Source of the DNA: Symbiodinium sp. CCMP2592
Taxonomy: Eukaryota; Sar; Dinophyceae; Suessiales; Symbiodiniaceae
Assembly: GCA_905221615.1 (NCBI GenBank)
Contig: CAJNDT010003223.1
Coordinates: forward strand, 620,001-684,000
DNA: 64,000 bases
Direction: 5' to 3'
Shown here: one piece after another, positions 27,041 to 48,553 of the stretch
Layout of the letters: each line of letters begins with the position of its first letter
Position numbering within the stretch: the first letter of the stretch is position 1
Position numbers and translations under genes: made by a program
The notes under the pieces: model-generated
Told to the model about the DNA's origin: nothing
Seen by the model: the letters and a program-made list of their open reading frames with translations, nothing else
The model's database searches: none

Positions 27041-27342
27041 AGCTAGGCAAGGTCACAAGTAAGTTCGCTGTTCCGATTTGCCCAAATTCACATAAATCCA
27101 TTTACCACTTCGCCCCCTTAAACATTCACCACTTTACCACGAAATATTCATTTACCACCTCGCCACCTCACACAATAACCACTTTACCACAAATTACCTA
27201 TTTACCACCTAGCCACCTTAAACAATCCCCCTATACCATAACTACCAAAGAACTCTCCTATTAATAAATTATGAACGGCATAGGTTGCCCTTTATAATTT
27301 GATGTATCAAATTATGAACCTACTTATGTGGTGCTGTTAGAA
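27041..27342. repeat. Left terminal inverted repeat
   Basis: 302 bp, matching the reverse complement of 48253-48553 except for one extra G (CCAAAGAACT versus CCAAAAACT). Internal structure: a 50-bp period with TTTACCAC at 27101, 27151 and 27201, and a 22-bp hairpin (10-bp arms ATAATTTGAT/ATCAAATTAT) at 27294-27315. Likely ends for integrase recognition and protein-primed replication (inference from the family). Confidence 0.95.
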
Positions 27343-27393
27343 TATTAATAATAATAATAATAATTATTATTATTCTAAACAAATATGTGCTGT

Positions 27394-28005
27394 TTATTCA
27401 AAAACCGGTTTAAGATACTTACATATTTCCTTATTGTCAAAATATTCTTGGTTATAACAACAAGCCGTTTTATTTGTAAAATATATTTCTAAGATGGTTC
27501 TAAGGAGGCTTTTGTAAGTGGAATATTGACGAACCCCGTGATGGTGAAATTCTTCATCTTCATCATACCAAAAGCGTTTAATGACATCAACACCATAATT
27601 AAGAAACCAATATGCTTTGTATGCTTCAATAGTTTTTATATGCCTTGACTCATTAATAAACTTTATCATTAATTTTTTGCAACTATTACTGTATTGCATG
27701 TGTGTGGATTCATTGATAATGTCTTTAAAATATTGTTTCTTTTGTTTGAGATTTGTTAGTCTTGTGTATTTAGAGTCAAAATGATGTAAAATGCAATGTA
27801 ATTGTTTCTTCCCAGTGCTATAATTCTTGAATTCTTCTTTACTGTATTTGTTTTCTAATTCAAGCATTTGTTCGCATTTGCAACAACATTCAAAGGATGT
27901 GATTATATTAATGATTTTTTCATTAAATACTTTGTTCAATGCGATTAAATTTCTTTGCTGAAAACATTCGCACTTATCACATTTAAAGTTAAAGTTAAAG
28001 GCCAT
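27394..28005 (-). CDS. Cys-rich putative zinc-binding protein, PLV unknown
   Basis: 203 residues. The N-terminus carries Cys 9, 12 and 14, then Cys 40, 41, 42 and 44, a spacing suggestive of a zinc ribbon; the rest is basic and helical with no recognised domain. It is the first gene inside the left repeat and points toward it. Its upstream region (28006-28071) contains the TTAAAGAC motif within a 55-bp sequence that is repeated upstream of the 101-residue gene at 28511, so both are probably expressed together, by inference early. Start chosen at the ATG nearest this element (MAFNFNFKC). Confidence 0.75.
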   Translation of the reverse strand: MAFNFNFKCDKCECFQQRNLIALNKVFNEKIINIITSFECCCKCEQMLELENKYSKEEFKNYSTGKKQLHCILHHFDSKYTRLTNLKQKKQYFKDIINESTHMQYSNSCKKLMIKFINESRHIKTIEAYKAYWFLNYGVDVIKRFWYDEDEEFHHHGVRQYSTYKSLLRTILEIYFTNKTACCYNQEYFDNKEICKYLKPVFE

Positions 28006-28016
28006 AATCTTCCTAC

Positions 28017-28071
28017 TATACTAAGGCGTTTTGTCTTTAAAACGTTTCTGTCCAAACGGCTTTATCAGGAC
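28017..28071 (-). promoter_or_regulatory. Repeated upstream element, copy 1 (TTAAAGAC class)
   Basis: On the + strand it reads TATACTAAGGCGTTTTGTCT followed by TTAA and, further on, GTCCAAAC and CAGGAC. It is shared with 28827-28880. On the minus strand TTAAAGAC ends 27 nt before the ATG of the 203-residue gene. Confidence 0.7.
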
Positions 28072-28152
28072 AGTATGAACTTACTTGTGGGGTGCTTGTA
28101 TGAAATATAATGAAAATAATGTTTCAAAATATTATTTATATGATATAGTAAT

Positions 28153-28446
28153 ATGCCAGAAGTTATACTTAAAAAATCATCTAAACCAGAAAAGAAATAT
28201 GACGCAGTCATTGATGGTAAAAAAACTGTTTCCTTTGGCGCTACGGGTTATAGTGATTTTACAAAACATAAGGATGAAGAACGAAAACAAAGATACATAG
28301 CACGACACGGTGCTACACAATCTTGGAAGGACATAGAAAAACCGCAGACGTGGGCACGGTATATTTTATGGGAAAAGAAAACAATACCAGAAGCGGTTAG
28401 AAATATGGAAAATAAATTTAACATAGACATAAAACTTAAAAAATAA
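28153..28446 (+). CDS. Small conserved NCLDV/PLV protein (DUF5754-like)
   Basis: 97 residues. The segment KYDAVIDGKKTVSFG followed by GYSDFTKHKDEERKQRYIAR matches, from memory, a small protein family of phycodnaviruses and other giant viruses (Pfam DUF5754); the C-terminal half has the usual Trp-rich WARYILW segment. Function unknown. It stands alone on the + strand, divergent from the 203-residue gene. No TCTA or TTAAAGAC motif lies directly upstream, so its expression class is unclear. The presence of this family links the element to large DNA viruses of algae. Confidence 0.8.
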   Translation: MPEVILKKSSKPEKKYDAVIDGKKTVSFGATGYSDFTKHKDEERKQRYIARHGATQSWKDIEKPQTWARYILWEKKTIPEAVRNMENKFNIDIKLKK

Positions 28447-28510
28447 AATAATTATTATTAATATTAATAATAATAATTATCGTGTTTTCATTTATGCTTT
28501 ATATTATCTA

Positions 28511-28816
28511 CTATTTTTGTATCTTTTTCAGTTTCTTGTATTCCTTCATTCTTCTTTTATTTTCATCAATCTGGTCTCTAATGGTTTGTATTTCATTCTT
28601 AATTAATTGCAGTCTTTTGTCATAATGGTATCGTGTTATATTTTCACTTACTGCTTCTTCTGTAAAATGCTTACGGTCTTCATCATCTCTTGCTTTATCC
28701 GTCATCTGTGATTTGAATTCTGTTAAACGCTTAATTCTATTCAACAACTCATCATTTGTTTCTTCAATTTCATCAATCATAAACTCAACAATTTCAAGTT
28801 GAACTTTGTTGCTCAT
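28511..28816 (-). CDS. Coiled-coil hypothetical protein
   Basis: 101 residues, almost entirely charged helix (for example EIEETNDELLNRIKRLTEFK and IRDQIDENKRRMKEYKKL). No membrane segment or cysteine motif. The upstream repeat 28827-28880 carries the TTAAAGAC motif 26 nt before the ATG, as in the 203-residue gene. Function unknown. Confidence 0.75.
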   Translation of the reverse strand: MSNKVQLEIVEFMIDEIEETNDELLNRIKRLTEFKSQMTDKARDDEDRKHFTEEAVSENITRYHYDKRLQLIKNEIQTIRDQIDENKRRMKEYKKLKKIQK

Positions 28817-28826
28817 TCTCTCTTAT

Positions 28827-28880
28827 TATACTAAGGCGTTTTGTCTTTAAGCCTTTTTGTCCAAACAGGTTTCTCAGGAC
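28827..28880 (-). promoter_or_regulatory. Repeated upstream element, copy 2 (TTAAAGAC class)
   Basis: Shares TATACTAAGGCGTTTTGTCT, then TTAA, GTCCAAAC and CAGGAC with copy 1 at 28017-28071, with small differences between. The motif is at 28843-28850 on the complementary strand. Confidence 0.7.
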
Positions 28881-29146
28881 TTATTCATATCGGTCTCCTA
28901 CCTTTTTAATGCCATAATATTCCAATGTGGTCTGCTTCGGCTGTAATATCTCTGCATTATTCAATTTATTTAAATATGTATTCTTCCTGTTGTCATATGA
29001 AGCATCTTTATCAATAGGTGTTCTAACAATAGGTTTTGTCTTTCTTCAATTGCTTTTAACCTTTCATCAATGGTATTCAACCTTTCCAAGATTTTTTGAA
29101 ACTTTGATGGTTTATGTTCCTCTTCAAAATCCATCTCCTGTATCAT
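28881..29146 (-). pseudogene. Small PLV gene with one-base frameshift
   Basis: From ATG at 29146 the frame reads MIQEMDFEEEHKPSKFQKIL and continues as helix to residue 37, then drifts to a stop at 28970-28972. The +1-shifted frame continues coherently (IVRTPIDKDASYDN, ending YYGIKKVGDRYE at 28881). The two meet at an A4 run (TTTT at 29034-29037 on +); a fifth A would unite them into about 88 residues. This is either decay or a homopolymer error. Function unknown. Confidence 0.6.
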
Positions 29147-29403
29147 ATACCTTAAAATAGGAAATTTTAAATTAAAATTTTTATAATAAAATTTTTCATA
29201 ATAAAATTATTATGAAAACTTTCAAACTAATTAAGCACCTGCTTATGAAGTGCTATTGAATGTATCTCATTACTTCCCTTTCATAAGAACATCCAATATG
29301 AAACACTGCATAGGGACGTCTGGGGGTTTTCTTTTCCTTCTTCCAAAAGTAAAACTGGCACACTTGCCCTGTCAGTTTTAAATAATTCCATTTCTCTAAA
29401 ACT

Positions 29404-29787
29404 TTAATCCACTTTAATTTTAGACTTATTTATATCTTTTATATCTTTTTTCATTAAATCAATATCTGTTTCAATTTTCTCTACTCTTTCTTCTAACTCT
29501 TCTGGCGTAATCTGAGATTTACCCCACCCTGTATCGCATATTTCAACACTTCCTGTTTGTAACTCATTATCTGCTTTGAAAATATCATCGGGCGAGGTAT
29601 GCCTACCAGCACCAAATTTAGTATTTCTTTTATCAACAACTGTATTCGTTGTTATTACGTTATTATCTTTAACAGTTGTAGTCTCCTTGTGATAAAACTG
29701 TCTTTTACAACGACAGGGGATACAAGATATACCACGAGCATTAATGCGAAACCCTTTATCATTACTTTCTTCTGAAATGTCGCTCAT
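29404..29787 (-). CDS. Hypothetical PLV protein with Cys pair
   Basis: 127 residues. An N-terminal CIPCRC cluster follows a short acidic start, the middle is Thr/Asn-rich, and the C-terminus is a charged helix (ELEERVEKIETDIDLMKKDI). No family recognised. A TCTA sits 10 nt before the ATG (29798-29801), the closest spacing of the late-type motif, so a virion or late role is plausible. The motif overlaps the 3' end of the neighbouring 50-residue gene. Confidence 0.7.
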   Translation of the reverse strand: MSDISEESNDKGFRINARGISCIPCRCKRQFYHKETTTVKDNNVITTNTVVDKRNTKFGAGRHTSPDDIFKADNELQTGSVEICDTGWGKSQITPEELEERVEKIETDIDLMKKDIKDINKSKIKVD

Positions 29788-29792
29788 TTATA

Positions 29793-29945
29793 TTATTTAG
29801 ATTTTTTAACATTTTTAAAATAATAACAAACTGCCTTCAAAAACTCTAACAAACTATAACAACACATTCTATATCTGGGTGTCTTTATTATATCTATTTT
29901 CTTTATCTCATCTATAACCTCTAAATACTCATCATACTCGCCCAT
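29793..29945 (-). CDS. Small 50-residue hypothetical protein
   Basis: ATG at 29945 opens MGEYDEYLEVIDEIKKIDII, followed by RYRMCCYSLLEFLKAVCYYF and a basic tail. It fills the gap between the packaging ATPase (divergent) and the 127-residue gene with almost no spacer, which supports it as real despite its length. The hydrophobic, Cys-containing C-terminal half could be a short amphipathic or membrane-associated helix. Function unknown. Confidence 0.55.
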   Translation of the reverse strand: MGEYDEYLEVIDEIKKIDIIKTPRYRMCCYSLLEFLKAVCYYFKNVKKSK

Positions 29946-29983
29946 ATATTATTAATTATAAATTGTTCTATGTATTAATAATA

Positions 29984-30775
29984 ATGATTACACCGATAGT
30001 TAAACCTATTAATGTTAAAGAATATGACTTCAAACAGTCTAAATACGATGTAGCGCCGAGGTTGCCGTTTAGTCAAATAATAGTTGGCCCTTCTGGAAGT
30101 GGCAAAGGTATCTTATTACAGTCTATGATATTAGACATTTACAGAGATGTGTTTGAAAGAATATACATATGGTCGCCAAGTATTTCAGTTGATAGTACTT
30201 GGTTGCCAGTAAAACGATACATTCAAGATAATTTAAAGGTTGATTTAGAAAAGGAAAAATGTATGTTTGATGAATATATCCCCGAAGAATTAGAAGCGGT
30301 GATAAAAAGACAGCATAAAGTCATAGAATATCAGAAGAAGAACGACCACAAAAAACTATTTTCAATCTTAGTCATTGTTGATGATTTTGCAGACAGTAAG
30401 GCTTTTTCAAGAAACTCACCTTTGCTAAATCAGTTGTATGTTCGCGGGAGACACAACAGTATCAACATCATAACAAGCACACAAAAATTTAACGCATTAA
30501 GTCCCATCATTCGTGTTAATAGTCGTCAGTTGTTCTTTTTTAGGTTAAGAAACTACAAAGAAATTGAAACAATGGTTGAAGAGTTGAGCGCCGTCTTAAT
30601 CAAAAAATCAACCGTAGCTGACCCTAGACACCTCGCAGAAGCAAAGAAGTTATTATTAGAAGTGTATAACATAGCAACAGAAGAACCTTACTCATTTCTG
30701 TTTATAAATCTAATGAATCCTGATGTAAATGATATGTTTTATAAACGATTTGATGCTAAATTAGTGATTGATTAA
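29984..30775 (+). CDS. DNA-packaging ATPase (A32/FtsK-HerA type)
   Basis: 263 residues. It should pump the viral genome into the capsid by ATP hydrolysis. Walker A is GPSGSGKG at about residues 35-42 and Walker B LVIVDDF at about 129-135; a following RGRHNSINIITSTQKF segment fits the sensor region of A32-like ATPases. Length is normal for PLVs and virophages. The ATG at 29984 is preferred over an in-frame TTG at 29963, and a TCTA motif lies 13 nt upstream (29967-29970). It is one of the hallmark genes that identify the element. Confidence 0.93.
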   Translation: MITPIVKPINVKEYDFKQSKYDVAPRLPFSQIIVGPSGSGKGILLQSMILDIYRDVFERIYIWSPSISVDSTWLPVKRYIQDNLKVDLEKEKCMFDEYIPEELEAVIKRQHKVIEYQKKNDHKKLFSILVIVDDFADSKAFSRNSPLLNQLYVRGRHNSINIITSTQKFNALSPIIRVNSRQLFFFRLRNYKEIETMVEELSAVLIKKSTVADPRHLAEAKKLLLEVYNIATEEPYSFLFINLMNPDVNDMFYKRFDAKLVID

Positions 30776-30803
30776 TAATATTATGAATAAATAGTATTAT
30801 TAA

Positions 30804-31016
30804 TTAAAATAAACTGTAATTACAAATTTGAACAGGTAAGCGATACATTATCTTATCACTCTTTTTTTCTTTTATTTCTTTCATTTCATTTATCATTTCT
30901 TTTAACACTTTGATTTGTAGTTTATCAATATTACTCAAATCTAAATCATTTTCATTAATATTGTTTATTTGATTAATACAATCATTCTCATTATCTTTTG
31001 AAATTCTACTTCCCAT
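30804..31016 (-). CDS. Small protein with N-myristoylation-like start
   Basis: 70 residues starting MGSRIS, which fits the Gly2/Ser6 rule for N-myristoylation, then an Asn/Asp-rich linker and a charged helix (LKEMINEMKEIKEKKSDK). A lipid-anchored small protein could act at a membrane during entry or assembly; that is inference only. No TCTA motif was found in its short upstream region. It lies just downstream of the fibre gene on the same strand. Confidence 0.6.
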   Translation of the reverse strand: MGSRISKDNENDCINQINNINENDLDLSNIDKLQIKVLKEMINEMKEIKEKKSDKIMYRLPVQICNYSLF

Positions 31017-31035
31017 ACTATATTATAACTTATAT

Positions 31036-33577
31036 TTAATTACTATCGCTTTTATGTCCTTTACCTTTACCCTTCAACTTCCTCACTTCTTTCTTTAAAT
31101 CATCTATTTCATTAAACGCAGATTGTAAAGCAGACCACAAAATAGGAACACACATACTGTAATCAAATTTTAAATAGCCATCTCTTCCCTCTTTAACAAC
31201 ATTTCCCCATTCTGGTGGCATCTTATCGGTTAAAAAATCATTGGCAACCATACCCACGCAAGGCCTGTCGCCGTATTTTTCTTTATCAATGAATTTGTAT
31301 GTTTTTGGTTTGATATACTTTACCATCTCAACGGCTTTCTTTGAATTGATTTCTTTTATACCCTCTTTCAATCTTTTATCAGAACTGGGTGCTATACCAC
31401 CCGTATAACTAATATCACCGATAACATCAATACCACCATCATTAACAGTTAATACATTTTCCTATTTCAATTATTGTATCTCCGTTTGTGTCTGGGTTTC
31501 TAAAAAATATTTGGTCTATTGGCCCCGCTAATTGAGTATGTGTGATACTTGCTTTTTCAAAGAAATTGACAGAACTACCTAATACTCTAAATTCTGGTGT
31601 TCCTGTTGCTCCAATATCTACATCAAAATCTCCCTCTGATGTTAATTTGCCTATTGTATTAACTGTATCATTAAAAACTGTTGCTTTATTTAATGTTATA
31701 CCATTAGTATCGTTTAAATTTATAAAAATATCTGATGATGTCGGGTCAATGCTTCTATTGCTTTGAATACAAAAATTTTGTTCTATGGTAGCAATATGAT
31801 TTAATGAAAAATTTGCGTTTGACTGTTGATATATTCTTCCTCTGCTACTAATTAATATATTATTTTGAAATGTATTATCAGTTCCATTAAATACACAATT
31901 ACCCCCAAAATTAGCACTGCCACCTCCCGCAACATTTAGTCGTGTTGCTCCTCCTGCTATTGCTCCAATTCCTAAATTATTACAATATACTGCTCCTCCT
32001 GCTGTTGCTGTATTCAATAATAATAATGATTGACTATCGTTGCTTGTATTGTAAGCATTAATATTAAATGAATGCATTCTTATATATCCTTGTGCGTTTT
32101 TAACTTGTAAAACTGGCGATGCATCTGTTGTATTTTTGAATACTTCAATACCATTATTATTTGTTGCTGTTATTGTATCTCCGTTCATTGTAATATTATT
32201 ATCTACTTCTAAACTATCAACTTTTGTAGCACCTCCTACACTTAAAACATATCCGCTTTCATTTGCTTTACCTATTCCTACTTCTGCACTTGTTAAACTT
32301 CCTAACCTCATTCTGTTGGAATTATTAACTGCTGAATTATCATTCAAAATCATTATATTACCATCTTCTGTATTGGCATTAGTGCATTTTAGATTATTAT
32401 TAACATATATCCGTTGTGCTGTCCCGTCTCTAATTCTTAATGTTGGGTCTGAATTATTTGATATTCTCCATAATGAAATCCCGTTTGTAGATATTGGTAA
32501 TAATATTGTGTCATTATTAAATGATACAGCACCATTAATAAATAATTGTTTGAAAAATGTTGTTCCGTTTGTTGTGTTATTACATTCTATATAAGTGTTT
32601 GTATCAGTGTCGTCATTAGTTCCGTTAATTAATCTTATAGCACTTGCTGTTTCATTTATAGACAAATCTAATGAAATATTAGATTTTGTAGCATTTGTGT
32701 ATCTTTCAATACTTGTATTACTATCTACTAATTCAATAGGATTACTAACACCACCACCGCCACTTACTCCTGCTATTAATCCATCAACCTCGCCTTTATT
32801 ATAATAATTAGTTGCTAATTGACTATTAGTTTGGTAGTTTGTCGTTAGTGTTGCTGTTGTTGCGTATGGTGCTAATGCTGTATTATCAATCCAGTTATTG
32901 GCATCAATCTGTGCCTTTGTGTAATAATCTGTATCCAGTTGTGTATTATTTTTATAATTTGTTGTTAGGGTTGCTGTTGTTGCGTATGGTGCTAATGCTG
33001 TTGCATCAATCCAGTTATTAGCGTCAATTTCGCTTTTATTGTAATATGATGTTCCTATTTGTGTAGATGTTAAATAATCATTTGTTAATGTAGAAGTTAA
33101 AGCATAAGGTGCTAATGCTGTATTATCAATCCAGTTATTAGCGTCAATTTCGGTTTTATTGTAATAATTTGTTCCTAATTGCGTGTTAGTTTGATAGTTA
33201 TTAGTTAAATTAGTATTAATGGAATTTATAGCATTAAAATTAGTAAGTGCTTTTCCATCAACAACGGCAACAGCATTATCAACTTCTGTTTTATTGTAAA
33301 AATTAACATTTAGTTGTGCTGTTGTTTGAAAATTATTAGCAAGATTATTATTAATATCAGTATTTACTAAATTCTGCCCATCATTAACTGCTATGATTGG
33401 ATTTACTGCATCATCTAGTTGTTGCTGTGTTATTCCACCTCCTCCATTACCTACATTAATATTTGATATTTCATTATCAACATAATTTATTGTGGCGTAT
33501 AAAGAACTTATATCAGTTCCATTAACAACAATATTATTTGCTGATACTGTGTTAGTGTTATTCAAAGTTAGTGTCAT
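31036..33577 (-). pseudogene. Long fibre protein with C-terminal S74 chaperone domain, frameshifted
   Basis: The first frame (31442-33577, 711 residues) has tail-fibre-like YYNKTEID / DANNWIDNTALAPYA repeats of about 40 residues (120-bp DNA period near 32880-33170), then Asn/Thr-rich beta-repeat sequence. It ends abruptly at TAA. The next frame continues without a start as SDKRLKEGIKEINSKKAVEM and so on to 31036, a peptidase S74 (intramolecular chaperone) domain that normally trims itself off trimeric fibres. One surplus A in an A4 run (TTTT at 31457-31460 on +) separates the frames; without it the protein would be about 846 residues. A TCTA lies 12 nt before the ATG (33590-33593). The likely role is host attachment. 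Confidence 0.85.
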
Positions 33578-33616
33578 TATAATGATAATTAGATAAATTA
33601 TTATTAGAATGTTTAA

Positions 33617-35038
33617 TTAATCGAACACTTTCAAACCTAAATCCTTAATTTCAATCACCTGTTCTGAAAGCATCGTGATGAACATCTCATCTGGCATATC
33701 ATCAACTGGAACACTTGCTCCTGCTGGTTTAACTCTAATTAACATTTGCTGACCAGCGCGAGTATTAATTCCTGTATAGCTACTATCTGGCACTTTTTCA
33801 AAAGAAAAGCCAAAAATAAATTGTCTATCACGATATTGCTTAAAATCAATTGAAATACTGTGTTGATGAAATACCGGAAGGTTTAAAGCTTTTCGTAAAT
33901 GATAGAAGCACTGAGTTAGTGAATTACAAGGATATTCTGGATACAATTTAGAACCCAATTGAATTTGAAACTCTAAGTCTTTATTAACATCATAAATACC
34001 TTGTGCTGCACTGTCGTGAGATTGATGAGGATGATAAAACCGACAGAAACGCTTATTTGCATATTCATATCCTAAACTTGGGTCATCTGTTCTATAAAAG
34101 GTGATAAAAGAAGCAACTAATTTAGAAACGGAACGAACAACTGGAACATTAATATCGGTATAACCTGCTACTGATTGTGATTGAGTAATATATGTTGTAT
34201 AGGTAATTGGTAATCCCTTACCTTCTAATAAATGTTTGACATATTCGTTGTTTAAATTATTATCAAGCGTACAAATATCACAAGATACAAAGGCGTTATT
34301 AAGTTCAAACAGTGTTGAAGTGTTTGAAACATTACCACCAGGTAGTGCCACATCAGTTGTAAAACGGTCTCCTATTGCGTTTGCCTCAGTGTTGTCATCA
34401 GGATTGATAATACAATCAGTATCACTATTTACAAGTTCAAGTTCAATAGTCAAATTACCCATATATTTTAATGGCAAATATTTGAATTGAGAGAATAAAC
34501 CACATAGTGGTTTAAATCCTACTGTCATTTGATTTTTAAAACCAGGGCAGTTTGTGCCATTTACTTCATAAGTTAAAACAGCACCCGCATTATTAATTAA
34601 TGTTTTAACTTCATCGTCATACCTATAACCGAAACCTTCATTTGCTTAGTCTTTTCGCGCTCCCTGAGACATTAACTTAGAAAACATCTGATGAACACGA
34701 TTGTAATTGTCAAAATCTTCAACAACCTGATTACCAGCGATAATTCGCATTCGTCTAAAAAATGAATAAGGAGGTGCTAATGGTCGTAATTTTCGGTTAA
34801 GGTCTTGGTCTAAATTTTGAACTGTAAAGAAGACACGCACACTTTGAGGGTCTAACCATCCGTTGTCTTCGGTGTTTAATGAAAATTTTAATACACGGTT
34901 CTCTGATGTAGGCTTATACACATTTGAACCTGACGGGTAAAATCTTACGCTTCTTCTATCAGTAATATAACTTGCTCCTTTGTTTAATTTGAATGAGAGA
35001 TTATCAACGAGAATATCTTCCGGGCTGAACGATTCCAT
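33617..35038 (-). pseudogene. MCP: Major capsid protein (double jelly roll), interrupted by one in-frame TAA
   Basis: The N-terminal part (34646-35038, 130 residues, starting MESFSPEDILVDNLSFKLNK) and the C-terminal part (33617 to 34645) are in the same frame, separated only by TAA at 34646-34648 just after SQGARKD. Between the stop and the next Met the frame is open and protein-like. The full span is 474 codons, normal for a PLV capsid protein. FFRRMRIIAGNQVVEDFDNY in the first half and GFSFEKVPDSSYTGIN in the second fit capsid jelly-roll strands. A TCTA lies 18 nt before the ATG. Order relative to lipase-like and minor capsid genes supports the call. A substitution-type stop is less easily explained by homopolymer error than the frameshifts; readthrough is possible but unsupported. 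Confidence 0.85.
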
Positions 35039-35092
35039 AATTATATATAACTAACATAGATAATTTAATTAAATATAATTATTAAATTATAT

Positions 35093-35284
35093 TTAATCAA
35101 ATAGTTTAAAATTATATGAATTTTCTTTAATATTTTTCTTTTTGTTCTTAACATCTTTTACTATGTCATTTCCCTCATTATCTTCTACTAATTTCCTTAT
35201 TTCTTCATAACTGTTCTGCTTAAACTTTTTATCTGGTTTTGGTTTCTCTAACTTTTCATAACTACTAGACTTATAAGAAAACAT
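35093..35284 (-). CDS. Small basic hypothetical protein in the capsid module
   Basis: 63 residues, Lys-rich (KLEKPKPDKKFKQNSYEEIR and DVKNKKKNIKENSYNF), no domain recognised. A clear TCTAATAATATT late-type motif lies 13 nt before the ATG (35298-35301). It sits between capsid and lipase-like genes, so a minor virion or assembly role is plausible. Confidence 0.65.
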   Translation of the reverse strand: MFSYKSSSYEKLEKPKPDKKFKQNSYEEIRKLVEDNEGNDIVKDVKNKKKNIKENSYNFKLFD

Positions 35285-35305
35285 ATATTAATATTATTAG
35301 ATTAT

Positions 35306-35947: not shown

Positions 35948-35988
35948 GAAAAAGAACTTATAAATTAATTTATCTAATTAATATTATA

Positions 35989-39788: not shown

Positions 39789-39820
39789 TTCATTATTTAT
39801 TTAAGTAATGAAGTATTTGT

Positions 39821-40069
39821 TCATTTCTTAATCGGCACTTCGGCATTTACATACATAGGCTGTTGTTTGTTTTCGGCGGATTTCCCTGTCTTGGTATAGT
39901 ATCGGTTCTTTTCACGCTGTCGCCTTTTCTCCATATAATCGGGTTCGTTTCGCTTCCTCATTTCGTAAAATAGTTTATTGTACAGCGACAATTGTTCCCT
40001 CACCTGTTCAAAGGTAAGGGTGTTCAACAGTTCATCAATAACGTCGTTGGAAATTTTTGCACTTGACAT
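39821..40069 (-). CDS. Small basic helical protein, early-type promoter
   Basis: 82 residues: MSSAKISNDVIDELLNTLTF followed by a basic helix (MRKRNEPDYMEKRRQREKNR) and a short tail. It is divergent from the polymerase-helicase gene. TTAAAGAC on the minus strand (40098-40105 on +) ends 28 nt before the ATG, the same spacing as at the 203- and 101-residue genes. Possible DNA-binding accessory or terminal-protein candidate; unproven. Confidence 0.7.
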   Translation of the reverse strand: MSSAKISNDVIDELLNTLTFEQVREQLSLYNKLFYEMRKRNEPDYMEKRRQREKNRYYTKTGKSAENKQQPMYVNAEVPIKK

Positions 40070-40097
40070 TTCTTATGTTAAATATATACGGAAATAT

Positions 40098-40147
40098 GTC
40101 TTTAAGTCATTTTTTAAAGCGATGTATGGACAAACTCTTTTAAAGAC
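40098..40147. promoter_or_regulatory. Divergent early-type promoter pair (inverted TTAAAGAC)
   Basis: GTCTTTAA at 40098-40105 (serving the minus-strand 82-residue gene) and TTAAAGAC at 40140-40147 (serving the + strand polymerase-helicase) form an inverted pair in one intergenic region. The + motif lies 33 nt before the ATG at 40181. Confidence 0.65.
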
Positions 40148-40180
40148 TTGAAAACTTATAATTATAATATCAGTAAATTT

Positions 40181-43100
40181 ATGACCAAAAAACTTATCAA
40201 GAATTATGTAAAGAATCTACACAGCCTTAGAGACGCCCAACGTGGCAAAGTATCCAGCCAAACACTTACCAAAATCAATAACGTCGTAGATTTATATGAA
40301 GACCGTAAAATATCACAATTTACTACCGCTTTGAACCTGATTAATGGTATGACAATGGGAAACGAGAAATCAAAACAGAAAGGGTTAAAACAATATGAGA
40401 AGGCAGTTGCCAAATACGAAACCGCAACGCCCATAACCGAGCGAATGAAGAATACACCCGCCAAAGCACGGGAAGTTAAAAAAGAAAAGGAAGCAGAAAG
40501 GGGGAAACAGCAAGTGCTACGAAGGATTAGGCAGAAAATGGCGGTAAGGAAGATTTCAAACAAAGCCTCGGAAAAAGTGTTTGGCAATAGAAAGCAGTAT
40601 ATGGTTTCGTATATGCTTTTTACAGAAGAGCCGAGAAGCAAAAGACCATCATTTAGAATAAACGGCATACCTTACTACCCACTTCTTACCAACCCAGCCG
40701 TCAGAACCGCAAGTATCAAATCAAATGCTAGTGTAGAGCAGGTCGTTAAAAGAAAAATCACGAAAAGAGATGACAGAGCCTTGTTTAAGCGACTTATGAT
40801 GTCAATGAAGACCGACAAGTCGTTTGAAGAAATGATGCTAAGCGAGTTCGGCGACTATACTGATGCCATCAGGATAGAGAAAGTAGAAGAGGTAGATGAA
40901 AAGGACAGTGATAAAACCCCCACGACCAGAAACCTACGAAATGCGCAGAACATCAGCATCTACAACAGGTATGTAGAAACCGAGATAAACACAGACTATA
41001 TGACAGTCAAGGAGGCAATCGCAAAAGACAACTACCGCGAAAATGAATGCTGGATAAATGCACTTACCGACCACTACGAGGAAACACTTATGAGACAAAG
41101 GAGGGGCTCGTTAGCAAAACCCGCATTGACAAGAGAACGGGTGTTGGAAATGTTAAAAATGACCGAGGAGGAGTTTGTAGAAAAAGGGGTGAGTATAATG
41201 CAAATGGAGCATATATTTAAGGAATACAACATACCTGCCAGAATATTTGATTTTAATTGTAATTTAATTTATAAGCACGACCCCACCAAAAGCCTCAACA
41301 ATGTCCGAACCTTTAACGGGTTAGTGAAGGGCAACCACATTTATGTCATCAACAACGACCTTAAAAGTTTAAAAAAAGAAGATATGCACAAAACTCACGA
41401 TATGCAAGTTAAGGTCAGTGATAACTACCACATAGACGACCGAAAAGAATACGTAAAATGCAAGATGATAGATAATATCAATGACCTACTTAAACTCACA
41501 GATGAAGACGCGAATGCTCGCGTGCTACGCGAAGATTATACCTTAATCCACAGAGACAACGACTTACCAAAACTGCTACACGACTTCAAGCAGTCGGGAT
41601 ACGAACCCTTCGTGAAATACCAAGCAGGGACTATATCGGAACTCAAAGTGAGGTGGAGATACAAAAAATTAAACAAAACCATAAACTACACAATAAAATC
41701 GCAAAATATGAATAGCAACAGGATTGATGAGGATGTTGTGGTATCAAGCGAGAGGGTGCATAACAGAACCAGTAAGGCAATGTTCGCAATGAACAAGAAG
41801 ATATTTAACGAAGCGCATAAATCGCATTATAACGAGGTTGATGTGCAGGTGCTGGACGAGTGCAGAACGGTTGTGCCGACGGGGTTGTTAAACGAGGCTC
41901 GTGGCGAGCAACTAACCGAAATAGATTTAAACAAAGCATTTACAAAAGCATTTACCAGCATAAATAAAATACCGGTGTTTAGGCAGTTTGATATATGGAA
42001 GCCTTATAAAAACGAAGACATAAACACACTGCCATCACTAACCCTGTTTATGGTGGAGAACACAGGTTCAAATATGTATTTTAATAAGAAGCACAACCTC
42101 ATTTACGGCAAGTATCTTAGGAAAATAATGGCACGAGGCATTAAACCAAAAATATTATATTTCAAACAGCCGTCGCATATACACAAGGTAGATTACAAGA
42201 AAATCGTTGATGAACTGTGGGCAACTAACATAAGCAAGGACGAGCACCAAAACAAACAAATAAAAAAGTTAATTGCCAATATAAACTTCGGATTGTTAGA
42301 GAAGTCGCGCAACAAGGCGCAAAGGAGCAGGATGTTTGAAACACTGGACGAGGCAATGTATTATCAAAAACTGTATGGGGGGCGAGTGTATGCCATAGAC
42401 GAGGCACAGGACGATTATACATACACGCCCTTAACTGATGAAATTAAAGGCAGTATAACAGAGTGGGATTTTGAAGATGACTTCTTTATGACTGGCGACG
42501 GTTTTTTGGAACGGTTCGCTGTGGTAGATGGTCAGATACATATACAGGAGGATTGCACGAAATACGTTTCAAAATATTATATCTTAAATGTGTCAGACGA
42601 GAGGACTTTAAGCAATGGCTTTCGGTATATTAAGGAAGTGCTTCTACAAGACCATAATTATAGAATGTTTGAAGCACACAGTCTTTTAAATGCTAATGGC
42701 GTGGAGGTGTATAGTGTAAAAGCCGATGCTATGACCATTAAAACCTCGGACTTGAACAAGGCAAAAGAGATACTAAAATTTGGCACTGTAATCGGCGAAT
42801 GGAGAGCCGAAGTGGGCAAGGTAATCAGGTTGCCAGAGGAGAACCGAAAAATAATGTTTAATCAACTGATTAATATACCGAAACAGGTAAATGAAAAAGT
42901 ACGTATAAAGGATGAATGGAACACGGAAACCATTATCAAGCAAATAAAGGAAGAAGCAGGGGGCAAATGCTTAATTAAAGGGAAGGTGGGTGGCACAGGT
43001 AAGAGTTATATAGGCGAGTATTTTAAGAAATTAGGTTATAATGCATTGTTCGTTGTAGGCACTAATCAACTGTCGCAAGAAAAGGAGTGTGAAGCAATAA

Positions 43101-44239
43101 CATTAAACAAGTTTTTTAGTGTCCCTATGGAGAAAGGCGAAGAACTGCCAATATTTGACCACTCGCCTTTTAATGTAATCGTGTTTGATGAGGTGTATAT
43201 GGCATCTATGTATATGCTAAATAAGATTAGACTGTTTGTAAAGAACAACCCCGATAAGATTATCATAGCCACTGGTGATACCAAGCAACTCCCGCCGATA
43301 GAGGATATGACCAACTGCCAGAACAAAGAGGCATATGGCAATCACTGTTTAGATGTCATCTTCACACACCACATCTTTTTGGAAATATCCAAAAGGGCAA
43401 AGGACGAAGACAACAGGAGAACAGTAAATGAGATGTATAATGATTTTTGGGTTCATCGGTTGGGACTGAAAGAGTTGATAAAGAAATACTTTAAGATGAC
43501 CAACGATGTAATGGCATCCACATACAACATAGCATACACCAACAAGAGGTGCGCGGATGTTTCAAACACGGTTCGGCAGAGACTCGGTAAAACAACTGAT
43601 TATGAAATAGGTGAGGTATTAGTATGCAGGTTGTATAAGAAAATAGGCAGTAAAAAGATAAATGTGAATTTTAGGTACAAAATCAAAGGCGTTGATAAAG
43701 GCAACTATCTACTGGAAAACATAAAGAGTTTAGAACAATGCACGGTAGATAGAGAAACCATAGAGAAGCATTTTAGATACAATTACTGTATCACCTGTCA
43801 TTCAGCACAGGGTGCTACAATCAAAGATACAATAACAATACACGAGTGGCAGTCGCCATTAGTTAGTAGAGAATGGCTTTGGACAGCGATTACACGCTGT
43901 GATGATTTTAACAAAGTGTTGTTGTTCGAGAGCAGTGCCTTTGAAAAGGAAATGGACAAGAAACTGATAATGGATTATTTTGAAAACAAGGTGGAAGGAT
44001 ATAAGCAACAGGACAGGAAAGCAAACAGGGAAATAAACGATGATATGTATATTAATGAGATGTGGTGTTTAAAACGAATGAAGGGTAATTGTCAAAAATG
44101 CGGTGTGAAATTTGAATTAGGCATTAAAAAGGGCAAATTATGTTCTAACTTTACTGCCCAGCGTGTTGATAATGAGTTATGCCACAGTGTGGATAATTGT
44201 GTTGCTTGGTGTCGGTATTGTAATTGTAGTGCTCATTAA
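40181..44239 (+). CDS. Polymerase-helicase fusion with C-terminal HNH-like zinc domain
   Basis: 1352 residues from the first ATG (an in-frame TTG at 40148 would add 11). The N-terminal domain has an ECWINALTDHYEE segment (about residue 287) of unknown role. A family-B, protein-primed-type palm follows: motif A EIDLNKAF (Asp about 582), motif B KKLIANINFGLLEK (about 694-707), motif C KADAM (about 848). The C-terminal half is an SF1B, Pif1/RecD-like helicase: Walker A GKVGGTGKS (about 934), FDEVY (about 1003), GDTKQLPP (about 1032), CHSAQG (about 1205), TAITRC (about 1234). The last 50 residues have CxxC pairs and AQRVDNELCHSVDN, like an HNH/treble-clef domain. It replicates the viral genome. 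The fusion resembles the large TVpol-type proteins of PLVs, as recalled. Confidence 0.88.
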   Translation: MTKKLIKNYVKNLHSLRDAQRGKVSSQTLTKINNVVDLYEDRKISQFTTALNLINGMTMGNEKSKQKGLKQYEKAVAKYETATPITERMKNTPAKAREVKKEKEAERGKQQVLRRIRQKMAVRKISNKASEKVFGNRKQYMVSYMLFTEEPRSKRPSFRINGIPYYPLLTNPAVRTASIKSNASVEQVVKRKITKRDDRALFKRLMMSMKTDKSFEEMMLSEFGDYTDAIRIEKVEEVDEKDSDKTPTTRNLRNAQNISIYNRYVETEINTDYMTVKEAIAKDNYRENECWINALTDHYEETLMRQRRGSLAKPALTRERVLEMLKMTEEEFVEKGVSIMQMEHIFKEYNIPARIFDFNCNLIYKHDPTKSLNNVRTFNGLVKGNHIYVINNDLKSLKKEDMHKTHDMQVKVSDNYHIDDRKEYVKCKMIDNINDLLKLTDEDANARVLREDYTLIHRDNDLPKLLHDFKQSGYEPFVKYQAGTISELKVRWRYKKLNKTINYTIKSQNMNSNRIDEDVVVSSERVHNRTSKAMFAMNKKIFNEAHKSHYNEVDVQVLDECRTVVPTGLLNEARGEQLTEIDLNKAFTKAFTSINKIPVFRQFDIWKPYKNEDINTLPSLTLFMVENTGSNMYFNKKHNLIYGKYLRKIMARGIKPKILYFKQPSHIHKVDYKKIVDELWATNISKDEHQNKQIKKLIANINFGLLEKSRNKAQRSRMFETLDEAMYYQKLYGGRVYAIDEAQDDYTYTPLTDEIKGSITEWDFEDDFFMTGDGFLERFAVVDGQIHIQEDCTKYVSKYYILNVSDERTLSNGFRYIKEVLLQDHNYRMFEAHSLLNANGVEVYSVKADAMTIKTSDLNKAKEILKFGTVIGEWRAEVGKVIRLPEENRKIMFNQLINIPKQVNEKVRIKDEWNTETIIKQIKEEAGGKCLIKGKVGGTGKSYIGEYFKKLGYNALFVVGTNQLSQEKECEAITLNKFFSVPMEKGEELPIFDHSPFNVIVFDEVYMASMYMLNKIRLFVKNNPDKIIIATGDTKQLPPIEDMTNCQNKEAYGNHCLDVIFTHHIFLEISKRAKDEDNRRTVNEMYNDFWVHRLGLKELIKKYFKMTNDVMASTYNIAYTNKRCADVSNTVRQRLGKTTDYEIGEVLVCRLYKKIGSKKINVNFRYKIKGVDKGNYLLENIKSLEQCTVDRETIEKHFRYNYCITCHSAQGATIKDTITIHEWQSPLVSREWLWTAITRCDDFNKVLLFESSAFEKEMDKKLIMDYFENKVEGYKQQDRKANREINDDMYINEMWCLKRMKGNCQKCGVKFELGIKKGKLCSNFTAQRVDNELCHSVDNCVAWCRYCNCSAH

Positions 44240-44262
44240 ACTAATATATAATATATATTATA

Positions 44263-45183
44263 ATGAGTTCTGATAAGCAAAAAATTATTTCAGATATTTA
44301 TTTTGACCGCTCCGGTTTCGGGAGTAGGGCTACTACACTTAAAGACAGTAAAAAGAAAGACGCCAGTATTACAAAGGATGATGTTGAGGAATTCTTCAAG
44401 AAAAACGTTGAAGAGAAGCGAAAACCCAGAGGAGAGAATTCATTTGTAGCACCTCACGCACATTGGGAGTATCAAGTGGATTTATTCTTTATAAGTAGTA
44501 AAGACTTAGAAAATCAAAAATTTAGAATAGGATTAGTATTAATTGATATTTTTAGTAAATATGCTACTGTCATACCTATTAAAAGTAAAGAACCGCCTGA
44601 TGTATTAGCGGGAATAATGGAAGGACTACAAAAAATGGGTGATAAACCTAAACTTTTTTATTCAGATGAGGAGGGTAGTTTATATAGTAAAACAATTATA
44701 GAGTATTTAGAGAAAGAGAACATAGAAATACATAGAACGAGAGGACACCCAGCCTTTGCCGAGCGTTTCATCAGAACATACAAAGATATGTTATTCAAAC
44801 GGATTGAAGCGAGTGAAAAGAAAGGTAAGCAAAATTTACAGTGGATAGATTATAATTTAGAGATATTATTAACATATAATAATAAAATGGTAAGTTCAGT
44901 AACGGGATTTACGCCGATTGAGGCGCGCAAACCTAAAAATGAATTCGCCGTTAAATTACATATTAGTTTAAATGCTAAACGAACACGTATGTATCCGGAT
45001 TTAAATGTTAATGATGAGGTTAAGGTTATGCGTAAAAAAGGCATTAGCGAAAAGGAACATTCAAGTCATTGGTTGAAAAATAAACAAACAATCACTAAAT
45101 TAGAGAAAAAATTAGGTCAAAAATATTATTATTTAGATAATGATACAAGAGGTTATTTAAGGCATGAGTTGTTAAAGGTGTAA
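44263..45183 (+). CDS. DDE integrase (retroviral type, rve)
   Basis: 306 residues. It inserts the element into host DNA by strand transfer and leaves short duplications, in agreement with the 5-bp CTAGG at the ends. The catalytic triad is Asp73 (YQVDLFF), Asp135 (YSDEEGS) and Glu167 (PAFAERF), with 31 residues between the second Asp and Glu instead of the usual 35. The C-terminal part (from about 240) is basic and beta-rich, fitting an SH3-like DNA-binding end; no chromodomain seen. It starts 23 nt after the polymerase-helicase stop, with neither promoter motif directly upstream, so it may be read from the same transcript. All catalytic residues are present, so the enzyme may be functional. 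Confidence 0.92.
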   Translation: MSSDKQKIISDIYFDRSGFGSRATTLKDSKKKDASITKDDVEEFFKKNVEEKRKPRGENSFVAPHAHWEYQVDLFFISSKDLENQKFRIGLVLIDIFSKYATVIPIKSKEPPDVLAGIMEGLQKMGDKPKLFYSDEEGSLYSKTIIEYLEKENIEIHRTRGHPAFAERFIRTYKDMLFKRIEASEKKGKQNLQWIDYNLEILLTYNNKMVSSVTGFTPIEARKPKNEFAVKLHISLNAKRTRMYPDLNVNDEVKVMRKKGISEKEHSSHWLKNKQTITKLEKKLGQKYYYLDNDTRGYLRHELLKV

Positions 45184-45799
45184 AAATGATAGATATAATA
45201 TACAAATATATTATATTTATTATGTGTTTGAGCCGTTTGAGCCGAAATTTCTTTCTTCTCTCCTCTCATCTTTCTTTATTAGGGGTTAAGCCGTGCATAG
45301 GGGTTTAGGGTGCGCAACAATCTGAGGCCATCGCAGTGCTTGGACTGTTAAACAGTCATGTTCCCCCTTTGTCCGCTCCCAGTTCTGAGAGGGTTGTTTG
45401 CAACAACCGCAACCCTAACCCGAAACTAAAACCTAAACTAAAAACCCTAACCCGAAACTAAAACCTAAAAACCCAGCGGGGCGCACCGGTGCCACGAACT
45501 GGAACTGCAAAGTGTCGTTGGAGAACAGGAGCACCTGCCACGGAGTTAAGTCGCGTTTTTTGGGGGGTTTAGGGGGTAGGGGTGCAAAACGGAAGCGCGC
45601 ACACACTGCACTGGCAAAACTGTCTCAAATCTGCTGGCGCATCGCACTACTGCCTTTCCCCCCTCACCCCTCGTGCTGTTGTCCCGCTCTGCTGGCGGTT
45701 TTCAACAAAAAGCGCTGTCGCCACAGCCTCATACTGTTGCGCGAAAGTGCCCGAAACAGCCCCTACGTGTTGCCCTTTATTTGAATACAACAAGTGCCC

Positions 45800-45865
45800 G
45801 AGACAGTGGCGACATGTTGCGCGAGACAGTGGCCACAGGTTGCGCGAGACAGTGGCCACAGGTTG
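45800..45865. repeat. Three tandem 23-bp units in the cargo
   Basis: GAGACAGTGGCCACAGGTTG-type units start at 45800, 45823 and 45846 (the last is partial), just downstream of the cargo gene's stop codon. Confidence 0.85.
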
Positions 45866-45878
45866 CGAGAACCTTTGC

Positions 45879-47978
45879 TTACAAATCGGCATCCGTTCTG
45901 GACGCCCGCGCCTCAATCATATCAACCAGAGCGCTTGAAACCTCGTTCCAAGAAACGCCCTTCTGCTCAGCACTGCCAAACTGCGTCAAGAACATAAGAT
46001 GGAGCATATCTTTCAAAGCAACCTCGGCAACTTGGCAAGATTTGATGCCGCCGTGAAGGTTGTTGAACTTGTCCTTGAAAATCGCCTTTGCCATAGTAGA
46101 AACCTTCAAATCAAGATTGTGAGTGTGCGAAGCCCCCGACAAAACCTTCAAGGTGCTGGTAGGGATGCCCTCAAAGACCTTGGTAATGATGCTGTTAGGC
46201 GCGGTGTCCATCTGAACCTTCAAGGTGGAAATCATTGTCATCGCATCAGTGCTTGCCGGCGTCGGCGTTGTCTGGACGGTAATGTAGGCAACATTGACAG
46301 CGTCGGTCAAAGCCCGCATCTTGTCCTCAATGCTCATCTTTGCACGTGGCTCACTGCTCATTCCACGCTTGCCACCGCCAGCGAGCAAGGGCACAATCTG
46401 GAAGGTCTGGTCACTGTAAGCCTCCAAACTGTCATAGCCCTGCAACACAGAAGCAGTCCCAGCGAACTTCACCTGAAAGAGCGTGGCATCCAACCCAAAC
46501 TCCGTCAAGGCCTCAAACAGGTTCTCGCCAGTAGCCCCGACCACGTAGTGAAAGACCAACTTGACCGAGCCTTGCTCGGTCTGCACCTCCATTTCCATAG
46601 GCTTTGTGATGTCGCCCTTGGTGTTGATGTCAATGGTGTTGCCGGTCTCCTTCTCGCACAAGGCATTCAACATATCCGACTGCTTCTTTCGCATCTGGGT
46701 TTCATCCTCGGTGTCAGTGTCCATCTCAATGCCGTTCTCGTTGTCGCTGTCCGTCTCAATGCCGTTCTCATAGACGTAGTAGTCGTATGTCTCGCGAGGC
46801 ATAATGAGTAAGCCATAGCCACTTTCAGCGCCACCATCAATGTCGTCTGACTCAAACTTGCTGAAAACAGACTTCAACCGCAAAGTCCAACCGATAATCT
46901 TGTTCTCAATGTCGCACCCGATAATCACAGGGTCTGTGAAAGGGATGTGGCGCGTCGCCTGATACTTGGTGAGGATGCTCTCTGCCGTGTCATCGCTGAA
47001 AATGGGAAGGGTTTCCTGTCCGTCCTCTGTCAGCAAGAAGACCGTGTAGGGTTTGCCTTGCTGGTCACCTTCCAACTTCTCAATGCAATCGGCGATTGCC
47101 TTTCTCATCTTCACGGCAGTGTTTTCAGCCTCGGTGAAGTCTGGGAGAAGTTCGCGCAGGACTTCAAGTGAGCAAGAGCCGATGTTGTCAAGGAGGAACT
47201 GCATACCGCGGTGGGGCACGGGTAGGCAGTCGGTGAGTGCCTGCATCAGCAGTTCCTGCTTCATGGCCTCCGCTTCTGAGGCAGTAGGGCTGTCATTGCC
47301 GGTCTCCTCCTTCTCGCACACGGCATTCAACATATCCGACTGCTCCTTGATGGTGTCGCAAAGCACGCGTGACGACTGTGTTGCGTCCGACACGCTGTTC
47401 TGCTCGCCGTCGTCCTCGGCATCATTGCGGTTCAAGAGCACAACATTCTCGGTGGTGAGAATGTCCTTGTCGGCGATGTAGCAACCCTCAGCAGTGCTGA
47501 CGTGAAGAAGACCCTGCAAGTAGAAGACACGAAAACCAGTAGTGATGGTGGGGGCGCCATACTTGTTCATCAGCAAAATGGTTCGTTTGCCATCTCCTCC
47601 GATGTCCTCACGAATGGATTTGGTTGCCGTTTCAAGCGGTGCCATCATCTTATCCATCGCATCAGACACCACGCGACGGGTAGAAAACATCTTCTTGACC
47701 TCGGTTGTTGTGGTCAGGATGTTTTCCCAATGCTCGGTAATGTAGGCAACCATTTCGTCCTTGGTCATCTTCCAGCGTTGCTTGTCCTTACTGTTATCCT
47801 TCATCACGCCATCCTCCCTGTAAATGAGGCTCACGAGGCACGATTTGGACAATTTGGGCAAGTGGGTTGCAAGGTCGGGCTTGGTAAGGGGGATAAGTTC
47901 CTCCGTGTCAATGATATGCCCTGTCTCCACCCAACAGGGCACCAAGTCATCACCGCGCTTCACAAACACCACTGCCAT
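45879..47978 (-). CDS. Cargo gene: large protein with ubiquitin-like segment
   Basis: 699 residues from the first ATG (47976-47978). The frame is open back to a GTG at 48110, so the true 5' end, or an upstream exon, is uncertain. It uses GC-rich codons unlike every other gene of the element. The segment VQTEQGSVKLVFHYVVG...FQVKFAG...LQGYDSLEAYSDQTF QIVPLLAGGGKRG (DNA about 46355-46600) reads like a ubiquitin fold, from FAG to a terminal GGG followed by Lys. Two copies of a KQSDMLNAxCEKE-TGN motif (DNA near 46650-46690 and 47300-47350) reveal an internal duplication. Acidic Asp/Glu linkers separate the parts. No promoter motif of either viral class is present. Likely acquired from the host; function unknown. 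Confidence 0.65.
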   Translation of the reverse strand: MAVVFVKRGDDLVPCWVETGHIIDTEELIPLTKPDLATHLPKLSKSCLVSLIYREDGVMKDNSKDKQRWKMTKDEMVAYITEHWENILTTTTEVKKMFSTRRVVSDAMDKMMAPLETATKSIREDIGGDGKRTILLMNKYGAPTITTGFRVFYLQGLLHVSTAEGCYIADKDILTTENVVLLNRNDAEDDGEQNSVSDATQSSRVLCDTIKEQSDMLNAVCEKEETGNDSPTASEAEAMKQELLMQALTDCLPVPHRGMQFLLDNIGSCSLEVLRELLPDFTEAENTAVKMRKAIADCIEKLEGDQQGKPYTVFLLTEDGQETLPIFSDDTAESILTKYQATRHIPFTDPVIIGCDIENKIIGWTLRLKSVFSKFESDDIDGGAESGYGLLIMPRETYDYYVYENGIETDSDNENGIEMDTDTEDETQMRKKQSDMLNALCEKETGNTIDINTKGDITKPMEMEVQTEQGSVKLVFHYVVGATGENLFEALTEFGLDATLFQVKFAGTASVLQGYDSLEAYSDQTFQIVPLLAGGGKRGMSSEPRAKMSIEDKMRALTDAVNVAYITVQTTPTPASTDAMTMISTLKVQMDTAPNSIITKVFEGIPTSTLKVLSGASHTHNLDLKVSTMAKAIFKDKFNNLHGGIKSCQVAEVALKDMLHLMFLTQFGSAEQKGVSWNEVSSALVDMIEARASRTDADL

Positions 47979-48252
47979 AGCACGGTGCTGGAAAGAAGGA
48001 AGACACTTGAAATAGGGATGTTCTTTGAGAGGCAGTATCTCAAAGGTGGCAGGTGCGTTGAATGCTTCAAGACTTGCTATGCGCCCACTCTCCTGACGAG
48101 AAGCACCCACACAGGCACTTCAAAAGAAAAACGCGCAAGGCGCACCGTCTCGTAGAAGAAGGGCTCGGTGTAGCGATTGCCACCAAGATGCGAGGTAATT
48201 AGGTTTAGGGGTTTTCTACCTACCGGCCACAGCATTGCTCTGGGGGGATGTT

Positions 48253-48553
48253 TTCTAACAGCACCACATAAGTAGGTTCATAATTTGATACATCAAATTA
48301 TAAAGGGCAACCTATGCCGTTCATAATTTATTAATAGGAGAGTTTTTGGTAGTTATGGTATAGGGGGATTGTTTAAGGTGGCTAGGTGGTAAATAGGTAA
48401 TTTGTGGTAAAGTGGTTATTGTGTGAGGTGGCGAGGTGGTAAATGAATATTTCGTGGTAAAGTGGTGAATGTTTAAGGGGGCGAAGTGGTAAATGGATTT
48501 ATGTGAATTTGGGCAAATCGGAACAGCGAACTTACTTGTGACCTTGCCTAGCT
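48253..48553. repeat. Right terminal inverted repeat
   Basis: 301 bp, the inverse of 27041-27342 with a one-base deletion as the only difference seen. Ends in CCTTGCCTAGCT, directly followed by the CTAGG duplication. Confidence 0.95.

Follow-up and report, generated by a model that had tools for sequence, protein, structure and literature searches.

An integrated polinton-like virus of Symbiodinium with a likely exchangeable cargo slot and a predicted ubiquitin-like fusion protein

We analysed a stretch of 64,000 nucleotides from the dinoflagellate Symbiodinium sp. CCMP2592 (contig CAJNDT010003223.1, positions 620,001 to 684,000), here called the window, in which positions 27041-48553 form one integrated unit of 21.5 kb with terminal inverted repeats as its ends. 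The evidence supports the identification of this unit as an integrated, full-length polinton-like virus (PLV). The left repeat occupies 27041-27342 (302 bp) and the right repeat 48253-48553 (301 bp), and the alignment of one arm with the other gave 301 matches, no mismatches and one 1-base gap. The sequence CTAGG is found on both sides of the element, at 27036-27040 and at 48554-48558, as a 5-bp target duplication. The near-identical repeats, their coordinates and the duplication had been reported in a first-pass annotation and were recovered as claimed by our realignment. The recent integration that it proposed is plausible in view of arms that differ by one gap, with the reservation that no rate is known and that replication may homogenise the arms.

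Comparison with other copies in the same genome, designated here by their contigs, showed 5-bp duplications of CCCAC (C1857), TGTAG (C913) and CTATA (C3546), each beside AG..CT termini, so that both features were present in all four copies of which the two ends were read, the window element included. The left ends of four copies were fetched, and the repeat pair was found in C1857 (83% over 265 columns) and C3546 (99% over 195 columns); comparison of the left ends of C291 and C1946 with their repeats gave only a 63-bp match and no match, respectively. The insertion site of the element is a telomere-like host repeat. TTTAGGG-type repeats are consistent with a dinoflagellate host, as are two relatives of the polymerase that are labelled S. 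kawagutii (Skav). When the flanks were joined at one CTAGG, the resulting 23-base string was found uninterrupted in the neighbouring host repeat at 26957-26979 (+ strand), which is the predicted uninterrupted target site. This exact match was the only one in the window, and none of 100 shuffles had any.

A genome-packaging ATPase of the A32 type is encoded at 29984-30775 (+; PF04665, expect value (E) 1.6e-10, above the cut-off). The gene of the major capsid protein (- strand) is split by an in-frame TAA at 34646-34648 into an N-terminal piece (34646-35038) and a C-terminal piece (33617-34645) with homologues 94% identical and less, and no complete capsid protein would be expected from it as assembled. 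The capsid piece had no Pfam or PHROG match and, in a sequence search of the PDB, a single match with an E of 0.47; the capsid alignment had no PDB match by sequence. The fold was tested on a model of the intact homologue P0002 (mean predicted local distance difference test score (pLDDT) of 54.8, better in residues 21-110 and in parts of 160-260), and its best fold matches were the double-jelly-roll capsid and scaffold proteins of PBCV-1, Faustovirus, vaccinia (D13), Sputnik, mavirus, PRD1 and adenovirus. Comparison of P0002 with a viral structure library returned capsids of giant viruses and virophages and a Tetraselmis virus S1 protein, with low template modelling scores of about 0.2-0.3. 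The product of the capsid gene is predicted to be a double-jelly-roll major capsid protein.

A protein of 1352 amino acids encoded by an open gene at 40181-44239 (+) consists of a vOTU domain, a polymerase palm, a superfamily 1 (SF1) helicase and a Cys-rich end. We aligned it with 34 relatives chosen from 120 database proteins listed. The vOTU catalytic residues C290 and H386 and the polymerase motif residues D582, K696, N700, G704 and D849, identified by motif and not by fold, were present in 35/35 aligned proteins, and the first Asp of polymerase motif C was replaced by Lys or Arg. The helicase scored 27.9 bits with PF01443 (cut-off 21), and its Walker A, Walker B and motifs III and VI were also kept in all 35. 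A sequence search of the PDB with the polymerase alignment gave weak matches to the RecD and TraI helicases (best E 0.019), and a search of IMG/VR with it gave one distant contig, 33% identical; no IMG/VR relative turned up with the polymerase protein or the capsid piece as single queries, or with the capsid alignment. The rve-type integrase encoded at 44263-45183 (+), an assignment in keeping with the 5-bp duplications, matched PF00665 weakly (E 2.5e-4; 21.7 bits, below the Pfam cut-off of 32.6) and had no match in the PDB by sequence.

The element is identified as a PLV because of its repeats, target duplication, ATPase, predicted capsid fold, polymerase-helicase motifs and integrase, and the first-pass annotation was borne out in describing a full-length integrated PLV with these genes. 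Of the features that mark PLVs, a double-jelly-roll capsid (predicted here), an A32 ATPase, a size of 15-40 kb with inverted repeats and a short target duplication were found, and the rve integrase domain gave the weak match below cut-off described above. A minor capsid protein and a maturation protease, both usual and not universal in PLVs, had no Pfam or PHROG match among the proteins of the element.

The last 3 kb of the element, between the integrase gene and the right repeat (45226-48252), had been missed by the first-pass annotation, as had the stop in the capsid gene and the break in the fibre-like frame. Their guanine-plus-cytosine (GC) content is host-like, at 0.53 (0.526), compared with 0.34 (0.336) for 27041-45225 and 0.48-0.49 for the flanks. 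They contain an open reading frame (ORF) for a cargo protein of 699 amino acids at 45879-47978 (-), with a third-codon GC of 0.69 against 0.14-0.46 for six viral genes. Contents differ among copies at the same place: the sequences to the left and right of the window's cargo ORF can both be aligned with C913, where the interval between them holds another ORF (539 amino acids) and a GIY-YIG gene, and the C5007 slot holds a 491-amino-acid relative. Further relatives adjoin the integrases of C2280, C39 and C1396, where the cargo is known by this neighbourhood only. The cargo is enclosed by both ends with their duplications in the window, C913 and C1857, and a right repeat lies beyond it in C2535 and C5007. 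In 8/8 copies with cargo of this type, which we define below by its glycines, the gene is convergent with the integrase gene; that of the window reads inward from the right repeat. Across the whole genome the 699-amino-acid protein had six matches, namely itself, two parts of the C5007 cargo, C39, C2280 and C335; four of the five non-self matches adjoin PLV integrases, the place on C335 lacking an assigned context. The cargo of C1857 had eight matches including itself, one of them on C768, which also bears a scored capsid match. These comparisons indicate that 45226-48252 is likely an exchangeable cargo slot.

All eight cargo proteins of this type, that of the window and those of seven other copies, have a Gly-Gly or Gly-Gly-Gly junction. 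A further part follows the junction in the same frame in six of them, and the proteins of C1396 and C2280 stop four residues later, with a separate ORF downstream. Ubiquitin-like precursors likewise end shortly after Gly-Gly. In the window, the segment before the junction (amino acids 452-536 of the cargo; 46371-46625, -) is a predicted ubiquitin-like domain with a Gly-Gly-Gly end, a prediction from profile comparison with a weak control. A profile of ten such segments (six from copies and four from database proteins, one of them a mixed transcription of P0123 and P0124) found ubiquitin in the PDB, with an E of 2e-41 for tandem chains and of 7.5e-5 to 1e-3 for single-domain chains. The alignment covered nearly the whole length of ubiquitin and placed the cargo Gly-Gly on its last two residues, and all 60 rows shown were ubiquitins, fusions of ubiquitin or variants engineered from it. 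In profile-profile comparison, six segments of the window's type scored 24.8 with ubiquitin/NEDD8 (probability 37%), a score that 200 column-permuted profiles sharing its tail all failed to reach.

Comparison of the window with C5007 showed that the identity of the two cargo genes breaks at these glycines. In ungapped steps of 30 bases, 25-30 of 30 bases were identical (83-100%) over the 240 bases that lead to the end of the glycine codons, and past them 7-12 of 30 (23-40%) in every step. Protein identity was 94% before the junction and 22% after it, and the C-terminal module of the window's cargo (45879-46370, -) is thus unlike that of C5007. Between C5007 and the database protein P0122 (EukProt), an identity of 92% was kept past the junction. 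Since identity drops sharply right after the glycine codons, the C-terminal part of the cargo appears to have been swapped at the Gly-Gly junction, which is the position where ubiquitin fusions are cut. We consider it quite probable that the element is a PLV with a stop-cut capsid gene and a likely exchangeable 3-kb slot, and that its cargo combines a domain predicted to be ubiquitin-like, ending in Gly-Gly-Gly, with a C-terminus that appears to have been swapped.

Several results weigh against this reading. Six segments, with C1396, C39 and C2280 left out, found PDB ubiquitin only at an E of 0.94, and the top match of that profile (1e-5) was an unrelated designed protein. The best of the permuted controls scored 24.7, the window segment alone scored 8.7 and the C1396, C39 and C2280 segments alone 17.3 with ubiquitin, and the C1396 segment alone gave an E of 0.24. 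No Pfam ubiquitin family was above cut-off, and the structure model of the cargo (mean pLDDT 42) was too poor for a fold search or a decision on a beta-grasp fold. The ratio of nonsynonymous to synonymous substitution rates (dN/dS) of the cargo was 0.65 between C913 and C2535 over 538 codons and 0.96 for the first 224 codons of the window and C5007 genes; the integrases of the window and C913 gave 0.12. The cargo values fit either rapid change in frames that stay open, of the kind expected for a conflict gene, or weak constraint, and the latter is the adverse reading. Finally, 20 further stretches downstream of integrases were inspected, 12 from the 13 best new integrases (C3413, which has stops, was omitted) and eight hand-picked lower down. 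An ORF of the Gly-Gly type was present in only two of them, C2535 (538 amino acids, close to that of C913) and C1857 (606 amino acids); five of the other 18 had a weakly similar membrane-protein-like ORF, and 13, among them C1557 with its plainly different layout, had other ORFs or none. This sample was not random and the other examples of cargo were found by similarity or by repeats, so these frequencies are rough. In three copies probed at guessed positions, a diverged integrase was the only match at the DNA level, because their layout is different; in C1396, one of the copies probed in this way, a cargo gene was nevertheless present. The relation to ubiquitin holds for the ten-segment group and is weak for the window's own segment. 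The mixed segment and the weak controls lower its odds slightly, and we conclude that the window protein probably has a ubiquitin-like domain.

The same weak controls, the poor model and the absence of a Pfam ubiquitin family above cut-off are what would be seen if the slot genes were PLV cargo in which the segment before the glycines is not ubiquitin-like, and the glycines were a hinge between a conserved and a variable domain, as in fibres or adhesins. We regard this alternative as possible and clearly the less probable one: ubiquitin is matched over nearly its full length with the glycines in register, all 60 rows shown are of ubiquitin type, and the C1396 and C2280 proteins stop four residues past Gly-Gly in the manner of ubiquitin-like precursors.

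It is improbable that the element is an ordinary PLV in which the GC-rich 3 kb are host DNA, or a nested host transposon, beside the right repeat, with an ORF unrelated to the virus. Overall and third-codon GC are host-like, TTTAGGG-like strings near 45300 resemble the host repeats, and the contents vary widely among copies; against this, related cargo is found at the same place and in the same orientation in 8/8 copies, in three of them within both ends with their own duplications, the sequences that flank the ORF are common to C913, and four of the five non-self genome matches adjoin PLV integrases. A nested transposon was rejected because the flanks of the ORF are shared with C913, and a spliced-leader relic, which would point to a retrocopied host gene, because no match with three mismatches or fewer was found in the 64-kb window and no exact one in 77 loci. 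An assembly chimera at the junctions, which one gene with a stop and one with a frameshift might suggest, is very unlikely, since a second contig (C913) shows this layout again, flanked by a target duplication of its own; the 5-bp duplications in all four copies of which both ends were read and the uninterrupted target in the neighbouring host repeat are further points against it.

Some slots showed other genes. The GIY-YIG endonuclease gene that adjoins the C913 cargo (L009:3054-3611; PF01541, E 1.4e-6) was not seen in the window's slot. Slot ORFs of 160-230 amino acids in five of the 20 fetched slots (L055, L059, L060, L061 and L065) have two or three membrane-like stretches, with a TKxD motif in three of the five; as a second cargo family they are weak, with 18-27% identity to the first member and 0.4 to 1.5 such stretches in shuffles. 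The slot ORF of C555 (L064:1491-2288) had no Pfam match above cut-off and contains a string that resembles the nucleotide-binding P-loop pattern.

We searched the assembly (1.098 Gb, 5383 contigs) for further members of the family, other copies being another of the checks proposed at first pass. The capsid search gave 118 scored matches of 457 first-look candidates, 72-100% identical, and the integrase search 129 scored matches of 804 candidates. The matched stretch was free of stops in 107 of the 118 capsid matches, in a list that favours good matches and in which the window is entered as open for the sole reason that its stop falls just outside the query. The median dN/dS of the capsid was 0.055 (30 copies; 395 usable of 435 pairs). 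Judged by these sequences, the window copy is one damaged representative of a large family in which most scored capsid genes are open and constrained. Particles are likely still made by the family, or were until recently, because most scored capsid relatives are open and under strong purifying selection. Pairs of PLV genes or ends with equal scores share a contig at distances of about 17-28 kb (integrases on C5211 and C167, capsids on C5211 and C4884, repeat ends on C2258); these are tandem copies or assembly duplicates.

The first-pass annotation had also placed the element in a host lineage with few described proviruses. This is contradicted by the 118 scored capsid matches and by published surveys: PMC10120064 counts 2,535 capsid genes for the dinoflagellate Polarella glacialis and distinguishes a capsid 'Dino group', and PMC12721341 describes 28 Oxyrrhis elements and depicts a polinton from Symbiodinium kawagutii. 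We therefore rejected the view that few proviruses are known in the lineage.

Among the remaining genes of the element, a 711-amino-acid fibre-like protein is encoded at 31442-33577 (-), with 120-bp repeats at 32795-33208; its frame is broken near 31442-31461, and an S74 chaperone domain (31036-31461, -; PF13884, E 1.1e-8), also matched by phage tail-fibre families, follows in another frame. The stretch 31036-33577 (-) is thus a tail-fibre-like gene in a PLV, a 120-bp-repeat protein followed by a phage-type S74 chaperone domain out of frame, and by sequence the 711-amino-acid protein is probably a receptor-binding fibre. Near the left repeat, a 97-amino-acid protein carries DUF5754 (28153-28446, +; PF19058, E 5.1e-20). 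No function was assigned to a 203-amino-acid ORF (27394-28005, -; no Pfam match above cut-off), a 213-amino-acid ORF (35306-35947, -; no Pfam or PHROG match) or five small ORFs (36872-39788, +), within one of which a nine-base tandem repeat at 37402-37472 encodes Val-Pro-Ser units. A 281-amino-acid ORF (35989-36834, +), with no Pfam match above cut-off and no PHROG match, is a candidate minor capsid protein by position only.

From these features a life cycle may be outlined. The rve-type integrase would insert the linear genome and leave the 5-bp duplication, the signature of which is seen; the vOTU-palm-SF1 helicase fusion, whose motifs are seen, would copy the genome in a Tlr1-like and presumably protein-primed manner; and in other copies the capsid protein and the A32 ATPase would package it. 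Copies share the N-terminal and ubiquitin-like parts of the cargo and may exchange C-terminal modules at the Gly-Gly junction. A deubiquitinase, either of the host or the vOTU domain of the element, could then cut after Gly-Gly and free a ubiquitin-like modifier and a C-terminal module, and these products might target the ubiquitin system in the host or in a competing virus. It is suggestive that one element encodes both a set of vOTU motifs and a predicted fusion of the ubiquitin-like-Gly-Gly kind; the link to cargo cleavage is tempered by the view, found in PMC11071308, that vOTU cleaves the polyprotein to which it belongs. We offer only tentatively, as an idea that is doubtful in its full form, that PLVs of this protist keep an effector slot by one end and a ubiquitin-like-Gly-Gly carrier fused to interchangeable C-terminal effectors, cut possibly by their own vOTU, so that the virus would bring substrate and protease of a modular effector or anti-defence system. 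Literature searches on polintons or PLVs and ubiquitin, at the level of their listings, turned up no such carrier-effector system for PLVs.

Comparison with known systems showed that the element is closest in its replication protein to Tlr1 of Tetrahymena and the Tlr1-like pPolB-S1H proteins, for which the available part of PMC11071308 gives the same vOTU-palm-S1H order as in the 1352-amino-acid protein; both have in one protein a vOTU, a palm without the first Asp of motif C and an SF1 helicase, together with an integrase of rve type, weakly matched in the window element. The capsid lineage is possibly different from that of Tlr1, and a ubiquitin-like cargo is not mentioned in that part of the paper. 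Dinoflagellate PLVs (the 'Dino group' and the S. kawagutii polinton) are likewise multi-copy, low in GC and about 21 kb long with a capsid; the P. glacialis polinton is shown with a separate pPolB, unlike the fusion found here, and the sections available of PMC10120064 and PMC12721341 do not mention a cargo slot for these elements. The PLV of Oxyrrhis marina (OmPLV; PMC12721341, same sections) shares a helicase-polymerase fusion, an A32 ATPase, low GC and gene decay with the window element, and differs in having the helicase first, a tyrosine recombinase, no target duplication and no vOTU found.

PLVs with predicted E3 ubiquitin ligases are known (PMC7805220, in part), so that an interest in the ubiquitin system would not be foreign to PLVs; those elements carry a ligase and that of the window a predicted ubiquitin-like fusion instead. 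Ubiquitin-ribosomal protein fusions and viral ubiquitin in the PDB also place a domain that ends in Gly-Gly ahead of a second protein or a short tail, from which the cargo segments differ by their wide divergence from ubiquitin and by interchangeable C-terminal parts.

The likely cargo slot and its apparently modular, fast-changing cargo, a predicted ubiquitin fusion for which the literature listings searched gave no PLV precedent, are what stands out here, the integrated PLV itself being ordinary for the lineage. The polymerase motifs of the 35 aligned proteins fit the view that the helicase-fused 'unknown domain' of protist PLVs, as described in the available part of PMC10120064, is a polymerase. 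Endogenous PLVs are known by the thousand, whereas little is known of the roles of their non-core genes. The fixed position of the likely slot and the repeated occurrence there of a predicted ubiquitin-like fusion, with a C-terminal part that switches right at Gly-Gly, give the testable idea that PLVs may manipulate ubiquitin systems, be it in their host or in giant viruses, and the interval between the integrase and the right repeat would be the place to look for such effectors in PLVs.

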